This document shows positions 14,792 to 37,373 of a stretch of 52,069 bases of DNA, in pieces. Below the pieces are notes generated by a model that worked only from the letters and a program-made list of their open reading frames with translations, was not told where the DNA came from and made no database searches. The stretch covers positions 1 through 52,069 of IMG/VR virus record IMGVR_UViG_3300021425_003459. One strand, written 5' to 3'. Numbering within the stretch: the first letter of the stretch is position 1; each line of letters opens with the position of its first letter. A program made the position numbers and the translations under genes. This DNA comes from a virus.

Positions 14792-15199
14792 ATGGATATA
14801 AGTTCAGCACAATCAAAAGGTTTTGGTTCACATGGTGGTTCCAAATATACTTTAAAAGACAGAGATATACAACCCCTTCATAAAAGAGTGCTTGTTTCAG
14901 ATATGTTCTTTGGAGAAAAGAAAACCAAAGGTGGTATCATACTGATGGACGACGACGGCACAGAATCCGGAATCCATCCCAGATGGTGTAAAGTATATGC
15001 TGTGGGTCCTAAACAGGATGACGTCAAGGTCGGTCAATGGTTGCTCGTGGCCCATGGTAGATGGAGCAGAGCATTGAAAATTGTCAAGAACGAGCAAGAG
15101 CTCGATGTGAGAATGATTGACGAAAATGATATACTTTTAGTTTCCGATGAACAACCAAGCAACGACGGCGTGGATCTGAGGGCCGGATACAGCAAATAA
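14792..15199 (+). CDS. GroES/gp31-like co-chaperonin candidate
   Basis: The 135-aa protein has a GroES-type beta-barrel pattern. DIQPLHKRVLV corresponds to the first strand (PLxDRVLV), EKKTKGGIIL to the mobile-loop and post-loop region (TxGGIIL), then HPRWCKVYAVGP (G-x-V-x-AVGxG) and VKVGQWLLVAHGRWSRAL, and a terminal ENDILLV (EDDILAV). GroES caps GroEL, and T4 gp31 replaces it for folding of the major capsid protein. A 20-residue N-terminal extension and about 15 C-terminal residues are extra. It has its own early-type promoter. The match is by strand pattern; sequence identity to GroES is low. Confidence 0.75.
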   Translation: MDISSAQSKGFGSHGGSKYTLKDRDIQPLHKRVLVSDMFFGEKKTKGGIILMDDDGTESGIHPRWCKVYAVGPKQDDVKVGQWLLVAHGRWSRALKIVKNEQELDVRMIDENDILLVSDEQPSNDGVDLRAGYSK

Positions 15200-15214
15200 A
15201 ACTTACATCACGAG

Positions 15215-15221
15215 ATAAGTA
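15215..15221 (+). promoter_or_regulatory. Late-promoter variant ATAAGTA
   Basis: It lies 34 bases before ATG 15256. A TAAGGA ribosome site sits between, so this would give a leadered transcript. The match is to the variant, not the consensus. Confidence 0.35.
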
Positions 15222-15255
15222 ATATACATATATATTAAAATAAGGATTAAAAATC

Positions 15256-16440
15256 ATGCCATGGACAGACGATGAACCAAAAACAATAAATTTAAATCAT
15301 ATTGTAATTTCCGATCATGACGGTTATAGATGGACAACCAAAAAATTCACAAGACCTCGAGGAACACCGGTGTACGCATTGACCCCGGAAGGAATAGAGA
15401 TCTATAATCATATTGAACGTTACAAGGCATTGGGTCATTTGGAATCCCATGTTGAAATTCGTTCTTTACCCGAAAACAGAGAACAATTTGTTTTAAAAAA
15501 TACCTGGAAAAATAAAGATTCGTATAATGAATTTGAAGCATGGTACATGGCACCCGATCCAGAAACAGGTTTGTCTATGCAAGATAAAACCAAAGAATAC
15601 GAAAAAAAACATAATATAATACATGAATACAATGTTGAAGCATTGAATTCTTCTTCCACTGTCGAGGAACATTTACAAAAAAGTTTTATTGAAAAAATGG
15701 CTTTTAGAAGAAACATACATGTTTTTGATCAGAAAAAAAATCCTGAAAAAACAGTAATTGAAAAAATTTTAAAAGATTCATTTCATTATGTTCCGATATT
15801 ACAATGTGTGTATCCTTTTCGTGTCAAAATATGGGGACCTGAATATCATGAAATGAAGAAGCAATTAGTGATTAGAAGTGTTTGCGGACCCAACCAAGAG
15901 AATTTCCGTCATGGTGGAAAGCACCAAGGGGATTGGAAACTGGCCGAAGAAATATATGATAAATGGATCAATCAATGGATAGATACCGGCGAAGAACAGT
16001 ACTATGACGGTTACTATTTCAATCAACAAATAATGGCTCCCTATTTGATTTCATGGCATCCGGTGCCTGATCTGCCTACACAAACACAATTGGACAAGGG
16101 TTATGTTGAATCAAGAACTAGCGGACACATGAAAAAGGCCGGTGGTCTACAACACATACAACAGATGACAATTGGCGTGTCCATGCATGGTTTTGGAATG
16201 AGTTTACTGGCGGCAAATTATGGACTTCATGCTTCTTTTACGAGAAACATAATTGTTGATTTTGATACTCCCGAAACATTACCAGAAATGGTGAAACCAA
16301 TGTTTACATCTCCGGATTCTGATTATCATAAAGTTCCTTTCGTAATGGGTATTGGGTATAGAGATCCAAGGTTTACTTATTTTGGTGATTCTAATATGGG
16401 TAAAAAACCAACATTTGACGAAATCAATCTTTGGCAATAA
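15256..16440 (+). CDS. Two-domain protein: duplicated N-terminal domain fused to a nitroreductase-like domain
   Basis: Residues 20-130 are paralogous to the protein at 13983. From about 145 the sequence follows a nitroreductase fold: RRNIHVFDQK (151-160) matches the RRSxRxF FMN-phosphate motif, ILKDSFHYVPILQCVYPFRV the helix and strand after it, GVSMHGFGMSLLAANYGLHA (307-326) the IAxQNLLLAAxxLGLG helix, and VMGIGYRDP (363-371) the final lALGYP strand. Such enzymes use FMN and NAD(P)H to reduce nitro, quinone or flavin substrates or to dehalogenate. An insertion at 205-300 is larger than usual. FMN binding and substrate are inferred. Confidence 0.6.
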   Translation: MPWTDDEPKTINLNHIVISDHDGYRWTTKKFTRPRGTPVYALTPEGIEIYNHIERYKALGHLESHVEIRSLPENREQFVLKNTWKNKDSYNEFEAWYMAPDPETGLSMQDKTKEYEKKHNIIHEYNVEALNSSSTVEEHLQKSFIEKMAFRRNIHVFDQKKNPEKTVIEKILKDSFHYVPILQCVYPFRVKIWGPEYHEMKKQLVIRSVCGPNQENFRHGGKHQGDWKLAEEIYDKWINQWIDTGEEQYYDGYYFNQQIMAPYLISWHPVPDLPTQTQLDKGYVESRTSGHMKKAGGLQHIQQMTIGVSMHGFGMSLLAANYGLHASFTRNIIVDFDTPETLPEMVKPMFTSPDSDYHKVPFVMGIGYRDPRFTYFGDSNMGKKPTFDEINLWQ

Positions 16441-16452
16441 CAAATATTTTTC

Positions 16453-16481
16453 TTTACTTTTATTATTTTAATCTATATAAT
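16453..16481 (+). promoter_or_regulatory. Sigma70-like promoter TTTACT-17-TATAAT for gene 44
   Basis: TTTACT (16453-16458) and TATAAT (16476-16481) are 17 bases apart in the only sizeable gap here. The 16-mer TAATCTATATAATAGT (16469-16484) is repeated exactly in the gene 45 promoter at 42843-42858. Confidence 0.75.
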
Positions 16482-16491
16482 AGTATAGATA

Positions 16492-17418
16492 ATGAAAGAA
16501 CTTTGGACCGAAAAATATAGACCTAAACAACTAAAAGAATATGTTGTCAGAGATGAAAATCAAAGAGAACAAATTCAAAGTTGGATCAAAGACGGAGCCA
16601 TTCCTCATTTGTTGTTCTCAGGTGCTCCGGGTACGGGCAAGACCACATTGGCCAAGGTGTTGTTCCAGGAACTAAATGTAGATCCATATGACATACTGGA
16701 AATCAACGCATCTAGAGAAAATTCAGTAGATACCGTCAGAGATAAAATTATAAACTTTGTACAGATCATGCCATTCGGAGCATACAAGTATGTGTTACTC
16801 GATGAGGCAGACTATATTACTCCCAACGGTCAAGCGGCATTGCGTGGCGTGATGGAGATGTATCATACATCGGCAAGATTTGTTTTGACCTGCAACTATC
16901 CCAACAGGGTGATCCCGGCACTACATTCAAGATGCCAAGGATTCCATATAGAGACATTAGACAAAAATGAGTTTACTGCTAGAATAGCCGAGATACTGAT
17001 CGCAGAAAAAATTGAACCAAACATTGATTTGATAGACACATATGTCAAGGCCACATATCCCGATATGAGAAAATGTATCAATCTTGTGCAGATGAACTCA
17101 CGTAATGGTGTTTTACACGCACCAGATAAATCTGATAAAGGACAGGCTGATTATCGTTTACAAATGGTTGAATTATTTAAACAAGGAAAAATACTAGAAG
17201 CACGAAAACTAGTTTGCTCTCAGGCAAGACCCGAGGAAGTGGAAGAAATATTTAGATGGCTGTATGACAATCTCGACTTGATTTCAAAAGAAGATGATGG
17301 ACAAGACAAAGCAATATTGGCTATAAAACAAGGTCTCGTGGATCATTCGTTTGTTGCAGATCCAGAAATCAATTTAGCCGCAACAATGATAAAACTAGCG
17401 AGGATATCAAATGGGTAG
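16492..17418 (+). CDS. 44: Sliding-clamp loader ATPase gp44
   Basis: The 308-aa AAA+ protein is close to T4 gp44 in length. It shows EKYRPKQLKEYV at the N-terminus, Walker A GAPGTGKT (44-51), Walker B VLLDEAD (101-107), the sensor-1 strand FVLTCNYP and the SRC arginine-finger motif (146-148). With gp62 it opens gp45 and loads it at primer ends. No gp62 is recognisable next to it, although T4 places it there. The following gene overlaps by 8 bases. An early-type promoter drives it. Confidence 0.95.
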   Translation: MKELWTEKYRPKQLKEYVVRDENQREQIQSWIKDGAIPHLLFSGAPGTGKTTLAKVLFQELNVDPYDILEINASRENSVDTVRDKIINFVQIMPFGAYKYVLLDEADYITPNGQAALRGVMEMYHTSARFVLTCNYPNRVIPALHSRCQGFHIETLDKNEFTARIAEILIAEKIEPNIDLIDTYVKATYPDMRKCINLVQMNSRNGVLHAPDKSDKGQADYRLQMVELFKQGKILEARKLVCSQARPEEVEEIFRWLYDNLDLISKEDDGQDKAILAIKQGLVDHSFVADPEINLAATMIKLARISNG

Positions 17419-28308: not shown

Positions 28309-28316
28309 ATAAATAC
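28309..28316 (+). promoter_or_regulatory. T4-type late promoter ATAAATAC
   Basis: T4 spacing puts +1 at 28321, exactly the A of the ATG, so the mRNA would be truly leaderless. Confidence 0.7.
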
Positions 28317-28320
28317 AGGT

Positions 28321-28680
28321 ATGCGAGCAAACCAGTTCATAAAAGAAGAGCATATAGACTCAAATGCAGTTCGAGAATTAGAATTATTCATAATGAATAA
28401 TGAGGATCTTTATCGTAGAAGATTCATGCCTATCATACACAACCTAAAAAAGAAGATCTCAAAAAACATATATGACCATGAAAAAGCCAAAACATTATGG
28501 ATGTATTTGATCAATGATGCGGCCAAAGAATATGTAAAAGAATACGGTAACCCCGACGAGGATGTAAAAGATCTTTTCCCCAAAGAAGTCAGAAGTCGTA
28601 TTGCAGAAATCATAGCAGATAGAGAATTAGAAAACATTAAACAAGGCGAATACGATGCTACTCAAGGAAATATTTCTTAA
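28321..28680 (+). CDS. Late helical protein with candidate capsid-targeting N-terminus, 119 aa
   Basis: It starts MRANQFIKEEH, where I7-K8-E9 fits the (I/L)-x-E cleavage site of the T4 prohead protease. The rest is helical (DLYRRRFMPIIHNLKKKI, then AKTLWMYLINDAAKEYVKEY) and resembles a conserved marine T4-like phage protein. It overlaps the nucleotidyltransferase fusion by 26 bases, so the two would be made together late. An internal head protein is the favoured reading; no enzyme motif is seen. Confidence 0.65.
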   Translation: MRANQFIKEEHIDSNAVRELELFIMNNEDLYRRRFMPIIHNLKKKISKNIYDHEKAKTLWMYLINDAAKEYVKEYGNPDEDVKDLFPKEVRSRIAEIIADRELENIKQGEYDATQGNIS

Positions 28681-29848
28681 GGAAGACGATCAATCAAGTG
28701 CCGTATTTGCATTTGGTCGATTCAATCCTCCCACAAAAGGTCACGAAAAATTAATACAAAAGGTTAGATCTGTTGCACAGAAAATGGATGCAAAACCATA
28801 TCTTTTCGTAACACATTCAGTAGATAAAAAAAATCCTCTTTCACATCAAGAAAAAGTTACTTACATGAAAAGCACAGGACGATTTGATGACATAGAAATA
28901 GGATTCAATGATGTTAAAACCATTGTCCAAGCATTACAAAAGTTAATGAACGAAGGTCGTACTAGAGTTGTCATAGTAGCGGGTTCCGATAGAGTAGATT
29001 ATTTCAAAAACTTCCTTAACCAATATAATAAGAAAAACGATAAAGCAGGCAATCTTGTTTTTGATTTTGATTACGTTGATGCTGTGAGCTCAGGAGAAAG
29101 AGATCCCGATGCTGAAGGAGTTACTGGATTTAGTGCATCACAGGCTCGTGAATATGCGGCCAATAACGATTTTGAAAACTTTATAAAAGTTGCAATGGAC
29201 AATGACAATAACACTATTAGAAAACTTTTTACCAAAGTTCAAAGCAAGGTTGGAAAGACGGTTGCAATAAACAACGAAAAGTTGTATAATGAAGACGATA
29301 TGCCAAAATCAAAACCAATAATATATCTGGATATGGACGGTGTGATTGCAGACTTCTTCGGTGGAGTTGAAAAAATGTTTGGAGTAAATCACTGGAAAGA
29401 GCTCACGAGCAAACTGTCTGGTGGAGAGTTAAAACAAGAAGTGATCGATAAAATTACCGGATCGGATTTTTTTGCTACACTACCAAAATTTCCAACTGCC
29501 GACTCGTTAATTCAACTGATTAAAAGTGCTACAGATGGAAAATTTTCCATACTCACATCACCATTGATAGGTGATCATGAAAACTCGGCTACTCAGAAAA
29601 AAATTTGGATTAGTAAAAACATAGAAAAGCCTGAAGAAGTGATTGTGTCCGGAAGAAAAGAAAAATGGGCAAAACAAAAAGATGGCACGCCAAATATACT
29701 GATCGACGACAGACCAGTCAATATCGAAAGATGGAAAGCAAAAGGCGGCTTTGGAATATTGTATCAAGCAAACAGAGACAGCATAATTAAAGTACAACAA
29801 GAAATCAACAGATATGGAGAAGAAAATGAAGCATCAAGGAATCAATAG
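28655..29848 (+). CDS. Fusion of nucleotidyltransferase and HAD-type 5'-nucleotidase domains
   Basis: Residues 1-10 (MLLKEIFLKE) look like a capsid-targeting peptide. The first domain has the GRFNPPTKGH motif (21-30) of NadM/NadR-like cytidylyltransferase-fold enzymes and SASQAR (160-165) in place of the ISSTxxR loop. The second has YLDMDGVIADFF (224-235) with the nucleophile Asp226, TSP (301-303), a Lys in GRKEKW, and LIDDR (349-353), as in NT5C-type deoxyribonucleotidases. One domain joins and the other hydrolyses nucleotides, pointing to NAD or nucleotide metabolism. Substrates are inferred. Confidence 0.8.
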   Translation: MLLKEIFLKEDDQSSAVFAFGRFNPPTKGHEKLIQKVRSVAQKMDAKPYLFVTHSVDKKNPLSHQEKVTYMKSTGRFDDIEIGFNDVKTIVQALQKLMNEGRTRVVIVAGSDRVDYFKNFLNQYNKKNDKAGNLVFDFDYVDAVSSGERDPDAEGVTGFSASQAREYAANNDFENFIKVAMDNDNNTIRKLFTKVQSKVGKTVAINNEKLYNEDDMPKSKPIIYLDMDGVIADFFGGVEKMFGVNHWKELTSKLSGGELKQEVIDKITGSDFFATLPKFPTADSLIQLIKSATDGKFSILTSPLIGDHENSATQKKIWISKNIEKPEEVIVSGRKEKWAKQKDGTPNILIDDRPVNIERWKAKGGFGILYQANRDSIIKVQQEINRYGEENEASRNQ

Positions 29849-30002
29849 GAATTATTCTGCCGATTACACAGAAAAAACACCACAAGAAAAACAAAGAGAG
29901 TTGGACGAGTTAATGAAAAAATTTTTAGAAAAAGGCGGTAAAGTAGAAAAAGTCAAAGCACACAATCCAACCAAGCAACAATTAAAAGACTGGACCATCT
30001 AA
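29826..30002 (+). CDS. Small basic protein, 58 aa
   Basis: The ATG at 29826 has GGAG at a good distance; ATG 29814 is an alternative. It contains a helical segment (TPQEKQRELDELMKKFLEKGG) followed by KVEKVKAHNPTKQQL, strongly basic. It overlaps the fusion gene's 3' end. It may bind nucleic acid or be a core peptide. Function unknown. Confidence 0.6.
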   Translation: MKHQGINRNYSADYTEKTPQEKQRELDELMKKFLEKGGKVEKVKAHNPTKQQLKDWTI

Positions 30003-30007
30003 TACTC

Positions 30008-30214
30008 ATGAATATAGACGAACTAAAAAAATTAGCAGGAATTGATAATTCGTCTAATGATAATTCAATGGGTGAAAATCTATCATACGTGGGAACGGCC
30101 AAAGCACAATACCAAAGAAAACACAATATAAAACCCGGTACTCCGGAATGGTTTAAATTATGGTTTGCACAACCAAGATTAACGGGTGAAAACCCAATGC
30201 CAAAAAATAAATAG
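30008..30214 (+). CDS. Small late protein with DELKKLAGI head, 68 aa
   Basis: It starts NIDELKKLAGI, a head motif common in marine T4-like prohead or core proteins (compare LADIAKLAGI in the 35193 gene). It ends GTPEWFKLWFAQPRLTGENP, another recurring block. It lies 5 bases after the previous gene. The Dps-like gene follows behind a late promoter that overlaps this stop. It is likely a small head component. Confidence 0.6.
   Translation: MNIDELKKLAGIDNSSNDNSMGENLSYVGTAKAQYQRKHNIKPGTPEWFKLWFAQPRLTGENPMPKNK
30207..30214 (+). promoter_or_regulatory. T4-type late promoter ATAAATAG
   Basis: It overlaps the stop of the 30008 gene. T4 spacing gives +1 at 30219, 3 bases before the Dps-like ATG at 30222. 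Confidence 0.65.
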
Positions 30215-30221
30215 TTCTACA

Positions 30222-30659
30222 ATGAATTCAGAAATTAGATTAAAAGCCAAACAGGCATTTGCGGACAGTTTCCTATTCTATCTAAAAGCACATTATTTCC
30301 ATTGGAATGTGGAAGGTAGACATTTTTCACAAGACCACGAATTACTTGGTAAAATTTATGAAGAAGTGTATGGAGCATTAGACAAATTCGCAGAAGAAAT
30401 AAGAACACTTGATACGTATGCTCCTGGAATATTCAATCGATTCATGAATCTTTCAAACATAGAACAAAAAGGACAGATACCGTCTGCAGAAGAAATGTAT
30501 TCAGAATTGATGCAAGACAATCAAAAAGTTATTTCTAATCTCACTCTTTTATTCGATATGTTGGAAGATTTAAAACTTTATGGGTTTGCAGATTTTATCG
30601 GTGAAAGAATAGACGCACACAATAAACATCAGTGGATGCTTAGAAGCACACTAAAATAA
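30222..30659 (+). CDS. dps: Dps-like mini-ferritin
   Basis: The start ATG 30222 follows a late promoter; the longer frame from 30186 overlaps the upstream gene. In the 145-aa product the E. coli Dps ferroxidase residues His51, His63, Asp78 and Glu82 find matches at His27, His39, Asp54 and Glu58 with identical spacing (12, 15, 4), and Trp28 matches Trp52. Dps binds DNA and stores iron while consuming peroxide. There is no Lys-rich N-tail, so DNA binding is unproven. Being late, it could protect packaged DNA or scavenge iron. Confidence 0.88.
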   Translation: MNSEIRLKAKQAFADSFLFYLKAHYFHWNVEGRHFSQDHELLGKIYEEVYGALDKFAEEIRTLDTYAPGIFNRFMNLSNIEQKGQIPSAEEMYSELMQDNQKVISNLTLLFDMLEDLKLYGFADFIGERIDAHNKHQWMLRSTLK

Positions 30660-30663
30660 TTCA

Positions 30664-30671
30664 ATAAATAC
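30664..30671 (+). promoter_or_regulatory. T4-type late promoter ATAAATAC
   Basis: It lies 7 bases before ATG 30679. T4 spacing gives +1 at about 30676, a 3-base leader. Confidence 0.65.
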
Positions 30672-30678
30672 TGCTAAT

Positions 30679-30909
30679 ATGAGAATACACGAGATACTAG
30701 CCACGAATTACGTACACCCAGATGTTGAGAAACAGTTAAAGAAAATCGAAAAACGTGCAACAGGAAAACCAAGGATGGGTTATCATTCCATGATGGCATA
30801 TCCTTTCAGGGTAAAAGAAGCATGGTCTGACAAATATAAAAAATCAATCAATTGCAACAATCCAAAAGGATTTTCTCAAAAAGCTCATTGTGCCGGAAGA
30901 AAAAAATGA
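30679..30909 (+). CDS. Small late protein with Cys/Lys-rich C-terminus, 76 aa
   Basis: It opens MRIHEILATNY and ends SINCNNPKGFSQKAHCAGRK, a C-terminal block that recurs in marine T4-like head proteins. The middle is basic and aromatic. The stop overlaps the next start as ATGA. An internal-head or core protein with a metal-binding or DNA-binding tail is plausible. Function unproven. Confidence 0.65.
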   Translation: MRIHEILATNYVHPDVEKQLKKIEKRATGKPRMGYHSMMAYPFRVKEAWSDKYKKSINCNNPKGFSQKAHCAGRKK

Positions 30910-31439
30910 AAATAAAAGAACTTTTTAAAGATTGGATAATCATGCCCCAAAGTATCAAACCATTAGGACTGATACATAAACCCGGCATCGGTCCCAATAA
31001 CAGATTTGATTTTAAAAACAAAGGCAACAACAAAGCCAATGAGGAAGCACCTCCGGGCAGAGAGAAGCAGGTCAAAGCACTCAAGGGCAAAGTGGACAAT
31101 CCATACGCAGTCGCTTGGGCTAGTTACAACAAGAGTAAGAAGAACGAAGATGCCGCAGGTGTGGGTATCATCACGAAACAGAACACCACCAAGGACGTCA
31201 AGCCCGGGGACGAATACAAGAATGTCAAGAAACTGCATCTTGAATGGCAAGAGTTTTCTGAAAATTTTGCAGATAAAAAAATCAAAGGCAAGAGCAGACC
31301 GGGTAGAGTTAAAAAAGCAGGTGCCAGTTGTGCTGGTTCTGTGACATCATTGAGATCCAAAGCCAAGAAGTACGGCGGTGAAAAGGGTAAGATGTATCAC
31401 TGGTGTGCCAACATGAAGTCAGGTCGTAAAAAGAAATAA
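30906..31439 (+). CDS. Late core-type protein with Cys/Lys-rich C-terminus, 177 aa
   Basis: The ATG at 30906 overlaps the upstream stop; the longer frame starts within that gene. It opens MKIKELFKDW, contains KVDNPYAVAWASYNKSKK (a recurring phage block), and ends with RPGRVKKAGASCAGS and YHWCANMKSGRKKK, two blocks seen together in marine T4-like proteins. Cys and Lys clusters suggest a metal-stabilised, DNA-contacting tail. The Lys content (nearly 20 percent) fits an internal head protein. It belongs to the same late set as 30679, 36425 and 37221. Confidence 0.65.
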   Translation: MKIKELFKDWIIMPQSIKPLGLIHKPGIGPNNRFDFKNKGNNKANEEAPPGREKQVKALKGKVDNPYAVAWASYNKSKKNEDAAGVGIITKQNTTKDVKPGDEYKNVKKLHLEWQEFSENFADKKIKGKSRPGRVKKAGASCAGSVTSLRSKAKKYGGEKGKMYHWCANMKSGRKKK

Positions 31440-31445
31440 TAAGTA
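31439..31445 (+). promoter_or_regulatory. Late-promoter variant ATAAGTA
   Basis: T4 spacing puts +1 at 31451, exactly the speD-like ATG. It overlaps the stop of the upstream gene. Confidence 0.45.
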
Positions 31446-31450
31446 TCTGT

Positions 31451-31834
31451 ATGGTTAAGCAGATCACAACTAAAAACAAACAATCTTGGGGTTATCACTA
31501 CATGGTCGATTGTTCAGGTTGTAATGACAACATATCAGATAAAAAACAAATTTCAATTTTTGTAAAAGAATTAATTAAAAAAATAAAAATGAAAGCTCAT
31601 GGTAAACCCACTATAGAATATCTTTTACCAGGCCATAAGAATGAGGGTTATAGTATGTTGCAGTTGATACACACCTCAAATCTAGCGGCACATTTTATGA
31701 GCAAAAGCAAAACTGCTTATTTCGACGTTTTCAGTTGCAAAAATTTTGATACAAAAATCGTTGATTTAACTGTAAAAAAATATTTTGCTCCAAAAAAAAC
31801 CAAATCAAAATTTTTAACTCGACAAGCACCATGA
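31451..31834 (+). CDS. speD: S-adenosylmethionine decarboxylase family protein (SpeD-like)
   Basis: The 127-aa protein fits prokaryotic class 1 SpeD. HYMVDCSGC matches the N-terminal HxxxDxxGC, and Ser76, His81 and Cys96 match T. maritima Ser63 (pyruvoyl precursor), His68 and Cys83 with exact spacing (5, then 15). The residue after the cleavage serine is Asn77 instead of the usual His64. Homologues decarboxylate SAM for spermidine synthesis, and some have changed to ornithine or arginine. The variant site means the substrate is open. It overlaps the next gene as ATGA. Confidence 0.85.
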   Translation: MVKQITTKNKQSWGYHYMVDCSGCNDNISDKKQISIFVKELIKKIKMKAHGKPTIEYLLPGHKNEGYSMLQLIHTSNLAAHFMSKSKTAYFDVFSCKNFDTKIVDLTVKKYFAPKKTKSKFLTRQAP

Positions 31835-32478
31835 AGTACGTTTTAATTTTATCATTCAGAGCACAAATTTACAGGTACGAACCCAGAGTTAGAGTATACT
31901 TCAGAGACTCTATGATAGATGAATTTCGTGTGTCTGAACATAAATTTGATGATCCAAAAAAACCAAAAATACTTTCGTACATCGTTGAAGTACCCAAAGA
32001 TCTCCAAGAAACGGAAATAAAATTAAAAATTTTAAATCATGACAACAACTGGACCAATGGATTCATGACCAAAGATACCAATATCTGGTTGGAAGATATA
32101 CATTTTTTTCCCGAACCCCAAATGAACAACCTCTATCAATTCCATTGGTTTGCCAATAACGGAGATGGCATTCATGAAAGATTTGAAACTTTGAGAGTTA
32201 ATTTAAGAGGTCATAATAATTCCGATGACAAAAACGGACTGTTTAATTTGATTGAATATGTGTCGTTTCATCGTATAGAAGGATTGCATAAGGGTGAAGA
32301 AGTTAAAGAAATAAGACATCTTAAATTTGGAGGTAGCGGCTATTATTCTGTCAAATTATATAAAAAATATGGAATGTTGATACCTAAAAATATGAAATAT
32401 CCTCGAAAATTCTGGATTAGAAAGCCCGCATTCATACAAAAAGTGTATGAAGGTTACAAAAACTTATTCGATATCTAA
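31831..32478 (+). CDS. Hypothetical beta-rich protein, 215 aa
   Basis: It overlaps the speD-like stop by 4 bases. The protein starts with alternating strands (YVLILSFRAQIYRYEPRVRV) and has DTNIWLEDIHFFPEPQMN and a LKFGGSGYYSVKLYKKYGM segment, with many aromatics and basic residues. The layout loosely resembles the 27837 protein (NLNIDNVDLGN against TNIWLEDIHFF), so a common carbohydrate-binding-like sandwich is possible. No active site is apparent. Function unknown. Confidence 0.55.
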   Translation: MKYVLILSFRAQIYRYEPRVRVYFRDSMIDEFRVSEHKFDDPKKPKILSYIVEVPKDLQETEIKLKILNHDNNWTNGFMTKDTNIWLEDIHFFPEPQMNNLYQFHWFANNGDGIHERFETLRVNLRGHNNSDDKNGLFNLIEYVSFHRIEGLHKGEEVKEIRHLKFGGSGYYSVKLYKKYGMLIPKNMKYPRKFWIRKPAFIQKVYEGYKNLFDI

Positions 32479-32486
32479 ATAAATAC
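32479..32486 (+). promoter_or_regulatory. T4-type late promoter ATAAATAC
   Basis: It lies 8 bases before ATG 32495; T4 spacing gives a leader of about 4 bases. Confidence 0.65.
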
Positions 32487-32494
32487 TACTAATC

Positions 32495-32749
32495 ATGAGA
32501 ATCAAAGAAGTTTTAATAAAAGAAACAGCAACAGCAGGTGCAACATCATCTGGTAATATTGCTTCTGTTGTATCTCCACATATAGCGATCGGACCCGATA
32601 GATTTAAAAAATCATACACAGGAACACCGGGAGTTTCGGGAACCAAGGCACCCAACCTTCCAAAAATCAAGAAACAAACTCCCAAAGATAATGCACTGGA
32701 CATGACCGGTACATCCTTGTTTGGAGGACCAGGAGTGGTGAGAAGATAA
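32495..32749 (+). CDS. Small late head-type protein with capsid-targeting-like N-terminus, 84 aa
   Basis: It begins MRIKEVLIKETA, where I8-K9-E10 fits a T4 prohead-protease site at the same distance as in T4 internal proteins. The rest is Gly/Pro/Thr/Ser-rich and disordered-looking (SGNIASVVSPHIAIGPDR, then SYTGTPGVSGTKAPN). This block recurs in marine T4-like genomes. It is coupled to the next gene by TAATG. Confidence 0.65.
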   Translation: MRIKEVLIKETATAGATSSGNIASVVSPHIAIGPDRFKKSYTGTPGVSGTKAPNLPKIKKQTPKDNALDMTGTSLFGGPGVVRR

Positions 32750-32913
32750 TGAGTGATATTTTATTGTTAAAAAAAGAATGGATATTGACTTGTCAAAATT
32801 GCGGACATGACTGTCATTGTGGAGGATCTTGTATGCAAGACTTACACGACGGAGACATGAAACCGGTCACTATCGAATGCTGTAAACACTGTAGGCACAA
32901 AGATGAAAATTAA
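32749..32913 (+). CDS. 54-aa Cys-rich zinc-finger-like protein
   Basis: The frame runs from ATG 32749 (in the TAATG overlap) to TAA 32913. It has eight cysteines and several histidines in TCQNCGHDCHCGGSC and ECCKHCRHK, enough for two zinc sites. It overlaps the following gene by 11 bases. Small zinc proteins of this sort often bind nucleic acid or act as inhibitors. No family is recognised. Confidence 0.6.
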   Translation: MSDILLLKKEWILTCQNCGHDCHCGGSCMQDLHDGDMKPVTIECCKHCRHKDEN

Positions 32914-33334
32914 TGAAGTCATAAACGAAGGCGCTTCCATGATGCCTTACTACAAAGATCCAAAAGACAAAGAACAGAGAATTTGGACTTTTCCAGATAA
33001 ATGGCAGAATGATGAGGAGTTAGACACTCCTTATATGAGCAATGCCAGTATGAGAATTTTTTTGAACACGTTGGGATATGATCCAGATTTTGAAGACATG
33101 CCTCCTGTTCCAGCAAAAGAATTTATTGCCAGAACAACACAATGGCTTCAAAAGAATATTGGCAAACCATCACAAGAAGAGCCAACAACAGTTGACCAAA
33201 ATCCAGGAGGTCCTACAATGTACAGTGGCGGTAGGCCGGAAGGATACATGAATCAACAAGTGAAGTACCATAACGAGTTGGCAAGAAAAATAATTCAAAA
33301 ATATCCAGAGGTGACACACTTTGGATTCAACTAA
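32903..33334 (+). CDS. Conserved late protein with capsid-targeting-like N-terminus, 143 aa
   Basis: It begins MKINEVINEG, where I7-N8-E9 fits the (I/L)-x-E prohead site. The body contains YMSNASMRIFLNTLGYDPDF, VPAKEFIARTTQWLQKNIGK and GGPTMYSGGRPEGYMNQQV, all conserved in marine T4-like phages. It ends VTHFGFN. There is no transmembrane segment. The promoter for the next gene overlaps its stop. Confidence 0.65.
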   Translation: MKINEVINEGASMMPYYKDPKDKEQRIWTFPDKWQNDEELDTPYMSNASMRIFLNTLGYDPDFEDMPPVPAKEFIARTTQWLQKNIGKPSQEEPTTVDQNPGGPTMYSGGRPEGYMNQQVKYHNELARKIIQKYPEVTHFGFN

Positions 33335-33341
33335 TAAATAT
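33334..33341 (+). promoter_or_regulatory. T4-type late promoter ATAAATAT
   Basis: T4 spacing puts +1 at 33346, exactly the A of the ATG. Confidence 0.65.
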
Positions 33342-33345
33342 TGAT

Positions 33346-35148
33346 ATGAAAATAAACGAATTGAACACTCCTGTACTGCCTGACACATACGAAGCAAGTA
33401 TGTTCTTGAACCAAACTATCAGGGCAGGAAAGTATGCCATAAAAATTCATAACATGATCGACAACGACCAGGAGATGGAAAGTTGGGTGGCAAAAAAATT
33501 AGATCTAGCCAGTTCATACATATCATCCGTAGGACACTATCTAGAAGGTCAGGAAATGTCCGAAGATGCCGGCGAAGGACACATGGCCAAGAGCCAAATG
33601 TACAAGATTGCAAAATATTGTTTAAAAATTTCAACTTTAGTTAAACCGGGTGATGACATAGAGGCATGGGTACAAACCAAAATGAATCGTGCTGTGGATA
33701 TGTTGGATGCTGTTTACCACTATGAGGATTACCAAAGGTTGAATCCTTACAGAGAGCAATTGGAACAAAATGTATTACAAAAGCATTCACAAGTGATTCA
33801 AAAAAACATCGATGAAATCTTATCAAAAGAAACTCCAGCCGATGATATAGAGACCAAACCTGGTATGTTAAACATCTTAAAGAAAAGAGTACAAGAAGTT
33901 GAAAAGAAAATGTGTCGAGAAAAAACAGAAGCAATCAGCAAAGAAGGAATACAACAAGGTTTTGCTGTGAGATATGAACGTGATGGAAAAAGATTAGCAC
34001 AGGCATACAAAAATAAAGATGATGCTAAAAAGAGAGCATCGGAATTAAAAAACACAACCGGCGTGAAAGACATCTCAATCACACAGCATACGTTTGCTTT
34101 CAAAGAAGATGAGATCAATGAAGATCCAAGAGCAGTAGGCAAAGCATTGGCCAATATCAAATACGGCAAAGAAATTGCTGATGCTATTCTAAAAGGCACA
34201 GACATTGGCATATTAAAAGTAAAAGCAAATGCCTACTTGAGTTCAATTGATGACACATTAGAACTATTGAATCAAATGTATCCATCTCAGTATAATAAAA
34301 ATGAATCTGCTCTAGCAGAAAGAATGCCAGCACAGATCATCAAAAACAAGCAAAAACTTGCTTATATGTCAGACAGAGAATTAGCAAATCATTTAAAAGA
34401 CAAAGATGAAACCACTCTGAGACAGATGGCTTGGAGACACGGTTACGGTAAGATGAGTTCACACTATTGGGACAGAGTTCAAAGAGGACTGGCAGATACT
34501 CACGATGACGATGTGTTAGACACAGAGTTTGATGCTCAACCCAGATACCGAGGACAAAGATTAGATATAGGCGACAGCATTGAAGAAGGATTGGGAGATT
34601 GGATGAAAAAATTAGCGGCCGCTGGAATAATTGTTGGTGCTGTTGCGGGCATGGGATCAATTAACAATGCGATTGATAACAGTGTACCCGCGATCCAGGC
34701 CATGAACACAGCATACGAAATGGCAGTCGACGCTGGCAACGATGAATTGGCAAAAATGATCAAAACAGATATATCAGATGCCAAAGTTAGATTGAGCTCG
34801 GGCAAGGACTTGAATCACATAAAATACCTACAAGACAAGTATTCAAAATTCATGAGTACAGAATCGGTAAATGAATATTCCATGGCAAAAAATAACATTG
34901 ATTTAATAAAACAAAAACAAGACAAAGAAGCATATCAAGATAAAGTACAAACGTTACAACAAATACAAAATGATCCAAATACAAATAAAGACGAATTATT
35001 AAAAAAGATGTTGATGAAAAGAAAAGAGAAATTAGCAACCACAGGTGAATCAAAAACAGTGCTTTATACCAATAGATTAGTGGATATGATGGGTAAAAAA
35101 CTAGGAGAAACCTGGACATTTGCTTTCAAAAACAGTCTAAAATCATAA
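33346..35148 (+). CDS. Large late internal or core protein with internal repeat, 600 aa
   Basis: It begins MKINEL. Residues about 24-68 and 87-128 are two copies of one helical unit (AGKYAIKIHNMIDNDQEMES and AKYCLKISTLVKPGDDIEAW). A SPOR-like segment (GFAVRYERDGKRLAQAYKNK) follows, then a HGYGKMSSHYWDRVQRGLAD block, one hydrophobic Gly/Ala stretch (LAAAGIIVGAVAGMG) and a charged coiled end. Composition and late control suit an internal head protein, possibly membrane-active on ejection. A helix-rich capsid-core scaffold is an alternative. Confidence 0.65.
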   Translation: MKINELNTPVLPDTYEASMFLNQTIRAGKYAIKIHNMIDNDQEMESWVAKKLDLASSYISSVGHYLEGQEMSEDAGEGHMAKSQMYKIAKYCLKISTLVKPGDDIEAWVQTKMNRAVDMLDAVYHYEDYQRLNPYREQLEQNVLQKHSQVIQKNIDEILSKETPADDIETKPGMLNILKKRVQEVEKKMCREKTEAISKEGIQQGFAVRYERDGKRLAQAYKNKDDAKKRASELKNTTGVKDISITQHTFAFKEDEINEDPRAVGKALANIKYGKEIADAILKGTDIGILKVKANAYLSSIDDTLELLNQMYPSQYNKNESALAERMPAQIIKNKQKLAYMSDRELANHLKDKDETTLRQMAWRHGYGKMSSHYWDRVQRGLADTHDDDVLDTEFDAQPRYRGQRLDIGDSIEEGLGDWMKKLAAAGIIVGAVAGMGSINNAIDNSVPAIQAMNTAYEMAVDAGNDELAKMIKTDISDAKVRLSSGKDLNHIKYLQDKYSKFMSTESVNEYSMAKNNIDLIKQKQDKEAYQDKVQTLQQIQNDPNTNKDELLKKMLMKRKEKLATTGESKTVLYTNRLVDMMGKKLGETWTFAFKNSLKS

Positions 35149-35156
35149 AACAATAA

Positions 35157-35164
35157 TATAAATA
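35157..35164 (+). promoter_or_regulatory. Consensus late promoter TATAAATA, distal of a tandem pair
   Basis: An exact TATAAATA, 22 bases upstream of a second one, in the 44-base gap before 35193. It may give a longer transcript or be a second start. Confidence 0.6.
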
Positions 35165-35178
35165 ATAGCATAACCCAA

Positions 35179-35186
35179 TATAAATA
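35179..35186 (+). promoter_or_regulatory. Consensus late promoter TATAAATA, proximal
   Basis: An exact TATAAATA, 6 bases before ATG 35193; T4 spacing gives a leader of one base. Confidence 0.7.
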
Positions 35187-35192
35187 GTTCAT

Positions 35193-36221
35193 ATGGCAAA
35201 AAAACATCACAGTGATTGGTTAGATATAGTTGAAAGACTTAAGGAATTGAGCAACATATCTCCCGAACAAGAACGACAACAACTGTTGGAAGCGGCAAAG
35301 CAAGAACCAAGAATATTAGATGACAAAGATGTGAGTTTGGCCGACATTGCTAAATTGGCCGGGATCAAGGAATACACAGAACCAAAAGTTTCCAAAAAAG
35401 CAGAAAAATTAATAGAGTCGATTGTTAACGATCAACCGACTAAAGAATCTATAATAACAAAAGCAATAAAAGAATCAGACACCGATACTTCTATTTCAAC
35501 CAAGATTAAAAAAGAAGTTACAGAAGATTCAAAGAGACTTGACAAGATTGCTGAGTTGGAGGCACAACTGGCAGAACTAAAAGCAGAACAAAAAAATGAG
35601 CAAACTCATGATGCTGAATCTTTCAAAAAAATTATTTCTGCAGAAATTAAAGAATATATTAAAAATGCCGACGAAAATCAATTGTCAGAACTATACAACA
35701 GCATTTCCGACAATGAAGCAGTTTACAACGAAGAACAAAAAACTATTCTAATCAAGACTGCTGAAACTAAAGAAATTATAGCAGACGCTGAGAAAAACGA
35801 AGAAAAAGTTGTACAAGAAATCGATAACGATAAAGAGATAGAAGAGATGGAAGCAGAACCGGCAAAATGCACACACTGTGACGGAACAGGTAAACACGGA
35901 GAAGATGACTGTGAAGTGTGTGGCGGTTCAGGAATAATAAGAGAAGCAGGTTACGAAGGACAAAGTGACCCACACGCACACGAAATTACTTTAGCAGGTG
36001 ATTACAATCAAGAAAATGCTGTAAGTGACGAAGACGCTATGAGAATTCAATCAATGTTAAAAAAAGCAGGTATTGATGCTGAAGTACATCCAAGCGAACA
36101 AGCACATAATAAAATTCATGTTCATACCATGGCAAGTAAAGACGCTGTATTAGACGTGTTAGGTGATGGCATTGACGAGCAGGTGAGTTACAAAGACGAG
36201 TTGTCCGAAAACAAAAAATAA
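35193..36221 (+). CDS. Late acidic helical protein with a DnaJ-type half zinc finger, 342 aa
   Basis: The N-terminal third has LADIAKLAGI and short helices. The middle (about 105-230) is acidic and coiled-coil-like. Residues about 233-250 read CTHCDGTGKHGEDDCEVCGG, two CxxCxGxG units, which form one of the two zinc sites of a DnaJ zinc domain. The C-terminal 80 residues have HIEHV-type alternation (AHEITLAGD, DAEVHPSEQAHNKIHVHTM). It is driven by tandem exact TATAAATA boxes, so it is abundant and late. A scaffold or head-core role is likely. Confidence 0.65.
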   Translation: MAKKHHSDWLDIVERLKELSNISPEQERQQLLEAAKQEPRILDDKDVSLADIAKLAGIKEYTEPKVSKKAEKLIESIVNDQPTKESIITKAIKESDTDTSISTKIKKEVTEDSKRLDKIAELEAQLAELKAEQKNEQTHDAESFKKIISAEIKEYIKNADENQLSELYNSISDNEAVYNEEQKTILIKTAETKEIIADAEKNEEKVVQEIDNDKEIEEMEAEPAKCTHCDGTGKHGEDDCEVCGGSGIIREAGYEGQSDPHAHEITLAGDYNQENAVSDEDAMRIQSMLKKAGIDAEVHPSEQAHNKIHVHTMASKDAVLDVLGDGIDEQVSYKDELSENKK

Positions 36222-36240
36222 AACTTTCTTCTTTTTTCAT

Positions 36241-36246
36241 CAAATA
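36241..36246 (+). promoter_or_regulatory. Late-promoter-like CAAATA
   Basis: CAAATAT departs from consensus, but T4 spacing would put +1 exactly at ATG 36252. Upstream is a run of T and C. Confidence 0.35.
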
Positions 36247-36251
36247 TTAGA

Positions 36252-36410
36252 ATGAAAAAAAGAAACAAAAAAACACACAATAAAAATTATAAAGAACAAA
36301 CCACATTCGACCCTAAAATACATATAAGAACGGGTAGCGGATACCACATGAAGCACAATGCTCCTGCTGGTAACATGAGTGGTTCTCAGTTGAAGCATAT
36401 ACTGAAATAG
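36252..36410 (+). CDS. 52-aa basic late peptide
   Basis: The frame runs from ATG 36252 to TAG 36410. It begins KKRNKKTHNKNYKEQ and ends AGNMSGSQLKHILK, strongly basic with no hydrophobic helix. It precedes the 36425 gene by 14 bases, with a late promoter overlapping its stop. A DNA-condensing internal peptide is one possibility. Confidence 0.5.
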   Translation: MKKRNKKTHNKNYKEQTTFDPKIHIRTGSGYHMKHNAPAGNMSGSQLKHILK

Positions 36411-36418
36411 ATAAATAT
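36411..36418 (+). promoter_or_regulatory. T4-type late promoter ATAAATAT
   Basis: GATAAATAT lies 6 bases before ATG 36425; T4 spacing gives a 2-base leader. Confidence 0.65.
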
Positions 36419-36424
36419 CAGTAT

Positions 36425-37219
36425 ATGAGTAATATACCAATATTTTCTTACAAACAATATCTAGACGACATGAGTCGTATGACTCAGACAGGCACCGTTG
36501 ATGCTGGACAACAAGCAGAAGCACCTGTGTCCGCAGGCTCTAGAGGATTAAAAAAAACAAAAGAATTTATAAAAGATCCAACACAAATGAAGATGGGAGA
36601 ATCGATCACCATGGAAGACATGAAAAGTTTAATAAACAGAATAGATGGGTTGAACGTGCCAACAAACGAGATCAACGAACTGGCGGATGACGACAAGATT
36701 GAATTCACAAAGGTTATGCTGGACATATCGCAGATCAAGGACAGGGTTGAAGCACTGTCAGTGGACGAGGAAGCCAAGAAATCTGCCATACAGTCACTGA
36801 CCAACGCAGAGGAGGCCCTAGTGGCCCTGGACGAAAGTGAATACGATCCATTCCCAGAAGAGGACGAGATGACGTTCGAGGACGATGATGCGTTCTTTGA
36901 AGCATTCGGTTACCTAGGCTTTCCAGAAGACGAAACGGAACTGTTCGACGCAGAATACAGAGGCAGAAAAGTACCACTGAACAAACCTATGCGTGGTGAT
37001 ATTAAAAAATTCAAAGTTTATGTGAAAGATCCCAAATCTGGAAACGTGAAGAAAGTTAATTTCGGACATGGTGGAAGTTCAGCGAGGAAAGCCGGACAGA
37101 AAACCATGAAGATTAGAAAGTCTAATCCAAAGGCGAGAAAAAGTTTTAGGGCGAGACACAACTGTGCTAACCCAGGACCGAAAACCAAAGCAAGATATTG
37201 GTCATGTAGGAAGTGGTAA
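36425..37219 (+). CDS. Late acidic-then-basic head protein with Cys/Trp-rich C-terminus, 264 aa
   Basis: The N-terminal two thirds are acidic and helical (EDEMTFEDDDAFFEAFGYLG). The C-terminal third switches to basic blocks (RGRKVPLNKPMRGDIKKFKV, then NFGHGGSSARKAGQK) and ends ARKSFRARHNCANPG and RYWSCRKW. This terminal region recurs at the ends of marine T4-like proteins of unknown role. The acidic-basic split resembles core proteins that bridge capsid and DNA. Base composition rises in GC at about 36.7-36.9 kb. Confidence 0.7.
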   Translation: MSNIPIFSYKQYLDDMSRMTQTGTVDAGQQAEAPVSAGSRGLKKTKEFIKDPTQMKMGESITMEDMKSLINRIDGLNVPTNEINELADDDKIEFTKVMLDISQIKDRVEALSVDEEAKKSAIQSLTNAEEALVALDESEYDPFPEEDEMTFEDDDAFFEAFGYLGFPEDETELFDAEYRGRKVPLNKPMRGDIKKFKVYVKDPKSGNVKKVNFGHGGSSARKAGQKTMKIRKSNPKARKSFRARHNCANPGPKTKARYWSCRKW

Positions 37220-37220
37220 T

Positions 37221-37373
37221 ATGAGAATATACGAAGTTACAGAAAAACACCTACCAGAAGAGAAACAAAAAGGCGTTGACGGCAAGGCTTGTTGGAAAGG
37301 CTACAAGAGAATGGGCACAAAGAAAAAAGGTGGCAAGACTGTAGACAACTGCGTTCCAATTAAGAAAAAATAA
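37221..37373 (+). CDS. 50-aa late peptide ending in the Cys/Lys module
   Basis: The ATG at 37221 follows the upstream stop; the longer frame starts inside that gene and is rejected. It opens MRIYEVTEKHL and ends ACWKGYKRMGTKKKGGKTVD then NCVPIKKK, a tail common in marine T4-like proteins. It overlaps the next gene as TAATG. Confidence 0.6.
   Translation: MRIYEVTEKHLPEEKQKGVDGKACWKGYKRMGTKKKGGKTVDNCVPIKKK

Follow-up and report, generated by a model that had tools for sequence, protein, structure and literature searches.

Candidate T4-type capsid-targeting peptides at the N-termini of several unrelated proteins, including a predicted nucleotidyltransferase-deoxyribonucleotidase, in a T4-like phage fragment

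Results

A gene island with recurrent N-terminal peptides

The DNA analyzed here, virus record IMGVR_UViG_3300021425_003459 of IMG/VR at its full length of 52,069 bases (hereafter the window), is a fragment of a T4-like phage encoding a clamp loader besides other T4-like genes. Its source, a marine T4-like virus of bacteria, appears to bear a short cuttable tag on several unrelated proteins. Five proteins encoded between 28.3 and 37.4 kb possess an N-terminal propeptide-like sequence of the type L/I-x-E (with V in place of L/I in one of them), behind which proteolytic cleavage is predicted. Four of these peptides, MRANQFIKE, MLLKEIFLKE, MRIKEVLIKE and MKINEVINE, had been proposed in an earlier note on this DNA as capsid-targeting sequences and are indeed found at 28321, 28655, 32495 and 32903, respectively. 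The same note listed four further M-(K/R)-I-x-E openings without a clean site. All four exist, and those at 30679, 30906 and 33346 are unclean, whereas the one at 37221 does show a clean site (VTE/K; here and below, a slash marks the predicted cut) and provides the fifth candidate. The corresponding features are:

28321..28347, + strand: candidate capsid-targeting peptide MRANQFIKE of a 119-residue open reading frame (ORF), cut predicted after E9
28321..28680, + strand: putative late protein of 119 residues with this tag
28655..28684, + strand: candidate capsid-targeting peptide MLLKEIFLKE, cut predicted after E10, nearly invariant across relatives
30679..30909, + strand: 76-residue protein, opening MRIHEILATN without clean site, basic C-terminal Cys module
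30906..31439, + strand: 177-residue protein, opening MKIKELFKDW without clean site, C-terminal module GASCAGSV...MYHWCANMKSGRKKK
32495..32524, + strand: candidate capsid-targeting peptide MRIKEVLIKE, cut predicted after E10
32903..32929, + strand: candidate capsid-targeting peptide MKINEVINE, cut predicted after E9
32903..33334, + strand: 143-residue protein with this candidate tag
33346..35148, + strand: 600-residue protein, opening MKINELNTPV without Glu at P1
37221..37244, + strand: fifth candidate capsid-targeting peptide MRIYEVTE, cut predicted after E8, V at P3
37221..37373, + strand: 50-residue basic Cys protein with a CWKGY..NC module

A motif search over the whole window reveals the start motif in 5 of 76 genes (called with a simple ORF finder rather than taken from a curated annotation), all within 9 kb. 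By shuffling residues 2-15, only 0.034 such genes are expected, and none of 20,000 shuffles reached five. Within 28.0-37.4 kb, 5 of 18 genes carry this start versus 0 of 58 elsewhere (p = 0.0005), and for the shorter opening M-[KR]-[IA]-x-[EQ] the numbers are 7 of 18 and 0 of 58 (p = 1.5e-5). As the motif was derived from the window itself, counts in other genomes carry weight. The complete genomes of the marine T4-like phages HTVC008M, Syn9 and Melnitz, with 616 genes in total, lack it, and no further copy was found in the remainder of a near-identical contig of 83.6 kb (G001). The former result first seemed contrary, but Syn9 (MKKFSAFLSEA) and Melnitz (MKKFSEIIEA and MQGFKTFLSEA) have the T4-like form of the start. 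Among named phages, no homologues of 28321, 32495 or 32903 were detected.

Conservation of the junction and exchange of the peptide

In relatives of the window, MRANQFIKE is kept as MRANQFIRE, MRAHQFIRE or MRASEFLNE, and the same peptide type also precedes other protein bodies. Conversely, the body of 32903, beginning with GASM or GAEM, is preceded by MKINEVIQE, MRAQEFIRE, MKASEFITE, MRFKEFNIKE, MRFHELLE or MRLHEFKQINE. In several contigs, this body instead forms the downstream part of an in-frame fusion with another protein. Nevertheless, the distinct junctions of this family invariably have Glu at P1 (23/23) and I, V or L at P3 (23/23). The 32495 family, in which peptide length varies, likewise shows Glu at P1 in 43/43 and a hydrophobic P3 in 40/43 junctions. 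Glu is also kept where the junction lies within an in-frame fusion (EIEE/GAEM, SVSE/GAEM, VVEE/GAEM and NISE/TATAG). Among homologues of the 28655 nucleotidyltransferase, hydrophobic-x-Glu immediately precedes the fold in 59 of 70 distinct N-termini, compared to 18% of control windows. The site is also retained in large fusions of this family (EEFLPE/AKSVAFT and EEVIQE/AKSVAFA). A Glu junction that stays invariant while the peptide in front of it is swapped, lengthened or replaced by a whole protein is as expected of a protease site, and the pattern suggests that the tag is a modular unit following the L/I-x-E rule of the T4 prohead protease gp21 (PMC9026906).

Altogether, about 30 body clusters with window-type tags occur in related loci, among them a stand-alone NT5C protein (MRASDLNLPE/GMEVYLDMDGVLADF). 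Relatives of 37221 have clean sites as well (MKIYEITE/GTRCWKGY and MRITDVITE/KCWKGY), and the GASCAGSV...MYHWCANMKSGRKKK module of 30906 directly follows a start resembling a capsid-targeting peptide, MKLRDIIVKE/NFADG..., in one related locus (L132). With the exception of MKIKEFHE/P in a homologue of 33346, encoded by the relative G009, the relatives of 30679, 30906 and 33346 that were read do not show a clean site.

Protease and capsid genes in a longer relative

When the search for gp21 and the major capsid protein gp23 was repeated with positive controls and longer relatives, both were detected (E = 4e-27 and 2e-82, respectively) in G009, a 196-kb relative sharing the same gene island. The gp23 of G009 contains a cut-like site, KKYLSE/QATAGATSAGNVATLNRVILPVIRRVMPT. 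Judged by where the conserved RRxxP region lies, this site appears to correspond to the place of processing in gp23 of T4. The junction (YLSE/QATAGATSAGN) recurs in the 32495 family.

A motif of approximately [LI]-x-x-[LI]-x-[KR]-L-A-G-[IL] was observed N-terminally, internally or C-terminally in putative late proteins of this lineage (30008-30214 and 35193-36221) and at the extreme C-terminus (DAELTNIRKLAGI) of a scaffold-like protein encoded between gp21 and gp23 in G009 (62525-63589). It is possibly a core-binding motif.

The nucleotidyltransferase-deoxyribonucleotidase fusion

As stated in the earlier note, a nucleotidyltransferase-phosphatase fusion is among the proteins with a candidate tag. 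It is encoded by ORF 28655 and comprises:

28655..29848, + strand: predicted 397-residue nucleotidyltransferase-deoxyribonucleotidase (Pfam CTP_transf_like and NT5C; PHROG 3041, 395 and 2643)
28697..29254, + strand: nucleotidyltransferase domain with GRFNPPTxGH and SASxxR motifs
29258..29293, + strand: inter-domain linker with conserved KLYNE/D, a weak candidate for a second cleavage site; low predicted local distance difference test score (pLDDT) at residues 202-213
29306..29797, + strand: NT5C-type HAD deoxyribonucleotidase domain (YLDMDGVIADF and ILIDDRPVNI)

Both Pfam families, PF01467 (nucleotidyltransferase) and PF06941 (NT5C), score above cut-off. The (H/T)xGH and SxSxxR-like motifs are nearly invariant, and in the second domain the HAD motifs DxDGV and DD are present within the conserved sequences YLDMDGV and ILIDDRPVN. 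In the AlphaFold model, residues 1-10 have a pLDDT below 50 and lie outside the fold, which begins at residue 15. The two-domain arrangement is not reliable, as the overall predicted template modeling score is only 0.49. Foldseek relates the C-terminal half to deoxyribonucleotidases (best PDB match 3bwv) and the N-terminal half to PPAT, NadD and FAD synthetase. These latter matches spread over three substrate classes. The NMNAT label of homologues may point to NAD-related chemistry. The linker motif [KRQ]LYNE is found in 10 of 11 aligned rows and lost in one relative (L044), and it has Tyr at P3, making it a weak candidate for a second cut. T4 NrdC.11, annotated as nucleotidyltransferase, had been considered as untagged control but was dropped, its N-terminal 120 residues lacking the GRFNPPT motif.

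Enzymes with candidate tags in cyanophage virions

The proposal that an enzyme could be packaged is strengthened by mass spectrometry of virions. A cytidylyltransferase/NMNAT-like protein with homologous nucleotidyltransferase domain has been detected in purified particles of four T4-like cyanophages, S-SM1 (T4-GC190; PMC3037559), S-CREM2 (ORF154; PMC10665884), S-SCSM1 (ORF91; PMC9602691) and S-SZBM1 (S-SZBM1_140; PMC9146016). According to their genomes, the enzymes of S-CREM2 (MKNFSSFLTE/A), S-SCSM1 (MKSFLQFLKE/A) and S-SZBM1 (MRFRQFIIE/A) all start like a capsid-targeting peptide, as in the window, but do not possess the deoxyribonucleotidase domain. In mutation experiments with the T4 peptide, targeting depended chiefly on residues 4 and 7 and processing on residues 8 and 10. 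The three cyanophage peptides match T4 at these positions, the one of S-SZBM1 being one residue shorter, and MKNFSSFLTE, MKRFDAFLTE and MKKFSAFLSE fit all four.

Counting over two of the four S-CREM2 genome segments, about two thirds of the ORFs, the T4-derived motif is present in 3 of 15 non-structural virion proteins, namely an S-adenosylmethionine (SAM) hydrolase, a kinase and the cytidylyltransferase, whereas the 126 undetected proteins lack it entirely (p = 0.001). With a wider motif, gp13 and gp136 are included as well (5/15 versus 2/126, p = 0.0001). Bare hydrophobic-x-E is frequent near N-termini, its loose form matching 30 of the 126 undetected proteins, and the site by itself would thus be no evidence. 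A test with this loose form was discarded as too weak (p = 0.02). In addition, the Cas9-like virion protein gp12 of S-CREM2 (OR473000, 7704-10313, - strand) bears RFASFMAEA, similar to the T4 capsid-targeting peptide, further in but still near its N-terminus.

These data bear on whether the resemblance could be due to chance, with the enzyme being a cytosolic auxiliary protein that contaminates virion preparations. Loose motifs do match about a quarter of the undetected S-CREM2 proteins, and contamination has been considered by the authors of two of the virion proteomes. However, the shuffling result, the invariant junctions and the recurrence of the enzyme in four independent virion preparations make such a coincidence most improbable. 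A reading of the peptides as amphipathic membrane anchors was set aside because packaging agrees better with the Glu junction and with the virion data.

Late-promoter-like elements

Several island genes are directly preceded by ATAAATA, which resembles the T4 late promoter and may indicate late expression. Two copies belonging to tagged genes are:

28309..28315, + strand: ATAAATA, T4-late-promoter-like -10 element, 5 nt upstream of the 28321 start codon
32479..32485, + strand: ATAAATA, late-promoter-like element, 9 nt before 32495, kept in most relatives

The window contains 14 forward and no reverse copies, and 12 of the 14 lie at most 30 nt, mostly 5-9 nt, upstream of a gene on the + strand. 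While the forward count equals the Markov expectation, strand bias and position are the notable features. The element ends 5-9 nt before many starts (e.g., copies at 28309, 30664, 32479, 33334 and 36411), so near to the start codons that late transcripts may be leaderless or almost so.

Considering this proximity, and the clearly exchangeable 5' ends of the genes, the shared start could be a 5' expression cassette of late promoter and favorable first codons that is swapped by recombination and plays no role in packaging. However, such a cassette can account neither for the Glu and P3 residues retained in fusions placed in frame behind another protein nor for the association of the tag with virion detection in S-CREM2. 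Moreover, genes 26866, 35193 and 36425 possess the promoter-like element but not the tag. Hence, we regard this explanation as very improbable, and packaging followed by cleavage remains the preferred one.

A copy of the capsid arm behind a candidate tag

Besides its candidate tag, ORF 32495 shows similarity to the major capsid protein, involving the following features:

32525..32578, + strand: sequence copying the N-terminal arm of mature gp23 in this lineage, TATAGATSSGNIASV..., corresponding to YLSE/QATAGATSAGNVATLN in gp23 of G009
32495..32749, + strand: 84-residue capsid-arm mimic with candidate capsid-targeting peptide
61327-62499 and 160775-161059 of G009: loci showing the arm copy in this relative

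In the G009 homologue (RINNE/QATAGATAAGNIAALN), 14 of 18 aligned residues are common with the capsid arm, and the score lies about 8 standard deviations above that of other proteins. The arm score is 73 for this homologue and 60 for the window protein, compared to a median of 23 (standard deviation 6.3) for other proteins. Likewise, gp160 of S-CREM2 has 19 of 24 residues in common with the gp23 of this phage (pair gp145/gp160), the arm sequence being unrelated to that of the window lineage, and gp97 of S-SCSM1 and gp190 of Syn9 also copy the gp23 arm. The mimics of G009, S-CREM2 and Syn9 score highest against their own arm, whereas S-SCSM1 gp97 reaches 88 against the arm of S-CREM2 and 83 against its own. 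Both S-CREM2 gp160 and S-SCSM1 gp97 are detected virion proteins. A small literature check gave no published description of gp23-arm mimicry. Tentatively, marine T4-like phages might encode small late head proteins which copy the mature arm of their own gp23 and change with it by lineage, in the window lineage directly behind the protease site. Binding at the place of the gp23 arm, they would represent a second, capsid-derived route for seating cargo beside injected enzymes with a capsid-targeting peptide.

The arm copy also fits a reading in which gp21 does cut the peptides but the proteins belong to the head structure or its core, for instance as DNA-binding internal proteins or scaffold helpers, and act in assembly without being injected. 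Several of the putative cargos are small, basic and Cys-rich like T4 internal proteins, of which IPIII influences head assembly. Still, we consider a purely structural role unlikely, since the enzymes retain their active-site motifs and the S-CREM2 tags are found on a SAM hydrolase, a kinase and a Cas9-like protein, all implausible as structural parts.

Further modules and cargo candidates

Small basic Cys modules (CWKGY..VPNC, KWVRFGPDGKIKGPC, RARHNCANPGPKTKARYWSC and CYHKVKSRYKVWPSAYASG) have been exchanged between tagged proteins that stand alone and the tails of larger proteins, as seen at 30679-31439 and 36425-37373, in relatives and at 14914-16866 of Melnitz. The CWKGY..NC module of 37221 is also present inside the Melnitz nucleotidyltransferase polyprotein, and the homologue of 33346 in another relative (G007) ends with a CWKGY..VPNC module. 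A 94-residue ORF of a related locus (L123), MKISEIISE/LNRRDFLKKVGKGAAATAAFGAGAL, combines a candidate capsid-targeting peptide with an apparent twin-arginine signal immediately behind it. In G009 (locus L253, 164376-164948, - strand), a protein assigned by eye as Cu/Zn superoxide dismutase-like is located behind a KLTE/A junction, and the window island encodes a ferritin/Dps-like protein (30222-30659). Both are possible candidates for an oxidative-stress cargo.

Discussion

The earlier reading of the tags as T4-type capsid-targeting peptides is supported along three lines: evolution of the junctions, presence of gp21 and gp23 in a relative and virion mass spectrometry of homologues. We therefore interpret the island at 28.3-37.4 kb as a putative set of late genes, the products of which would start with a short T4-like peptide for capsid targeting. 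Transcription would begin at the ATAAATA elements, and the peptide of 8-10 residues would bind the prohead core, so that the protein is incorporated into the prohead before DNA packaging. Subsequently, gp21 would cut after (I/L/V)-x-E and free the mature protein inside the head, from where it could be ejected along with the DNA. With the nucleotidyltransferase-deoxyribonucleotidase as one cargo, the cell would receive an enzyme of nucleotide or cofactor processing at the onset of infection. For packaging plus cleavage of the tagged proteins we estimate a probability of roughly 0.85, while their ejection and action in the host appear only slightly favored. The suggestion of the earlier note that the enzyme could be packaged and injected is supported as regards packaging, whereas its injection, like core binding, cleavage by gp21 and action in the host, is an inference.

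Several observations weigh against this interpretation. Neither gp21 nor gp23 was found in the 52-kb fragment or in short relatives, in a search in which the control was silent as well. HTVC008M-type enzymes have a helix-like start yet no Glu (MKTLKELLRKK), and a few enzyme homologues do not have any peptide. The S-CREM2 association is based on partial genome coverage. As pointed out by the authors of the S-CREM2 (PMC10665884) and S-SCSM1 (PMC9602691) studies, virions purified with CsCl can hold contaminants. The literature gave neither proteomics for this phage or close relatives nor N-terminal mapping for any homologue. Finally, most of the aromatic residues that T4 has at positions 4 and 7 are lacking in the window peptides, where other hydrophobic residues predominate, in some peptides shifted by one residue. 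Targeting, unlike the cut site, would consequently have diverged.

The closest parallel is T4 itself, where the peptides of IPI, IPII, IPIII and Alt are cut by gp21. Likewise, in the window a short candidate N-terminal propeptide ending in hydrophobic-x-Glu is placed on unrelated bodies, and the phage group has gp21, a gp22-like neighbor and gp23. IPII and IPIII read MKTYQEFIAE/A, and the residues important in T4 are retained by the cyanophage enzymes, whereas MKINEVINE, MRANQFIKE, MRIKEVLIKE and MLLKEIFLKE have lost most aromatic targeting residues. In contrast to the T4 cargo, the window group possesses a nucleotidyltransferase-nucleotidase fusion, a capsid-arm mimic and in-frame fusions of multiple modules with conserved internal junctions. 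Comparable by description are also giant phages of the phiKZ/SPN3US type, in which the prohead protease strips propeptides from head and ejected proteins.

Cyanophage virion proteomes repeatedly hold metabolic and defense-related enzymes, for which the authors are undecided between cargo and contamination, and a targeting mechanism is not discussed in the passages covered here. A sequence tag would supply such a mechanism as well as a rule by which genomic or metagenomic sequences alone would suffice to predict injected proteins. If true, the T4 model of enzyme delivery at infection would also hold for marine T4-like phages, and the tag would show which functions are delivered before phage gene expression, among them nucleotide and cofactor chemistry, SAM removal, kinases and a Cas9-like nuclease.

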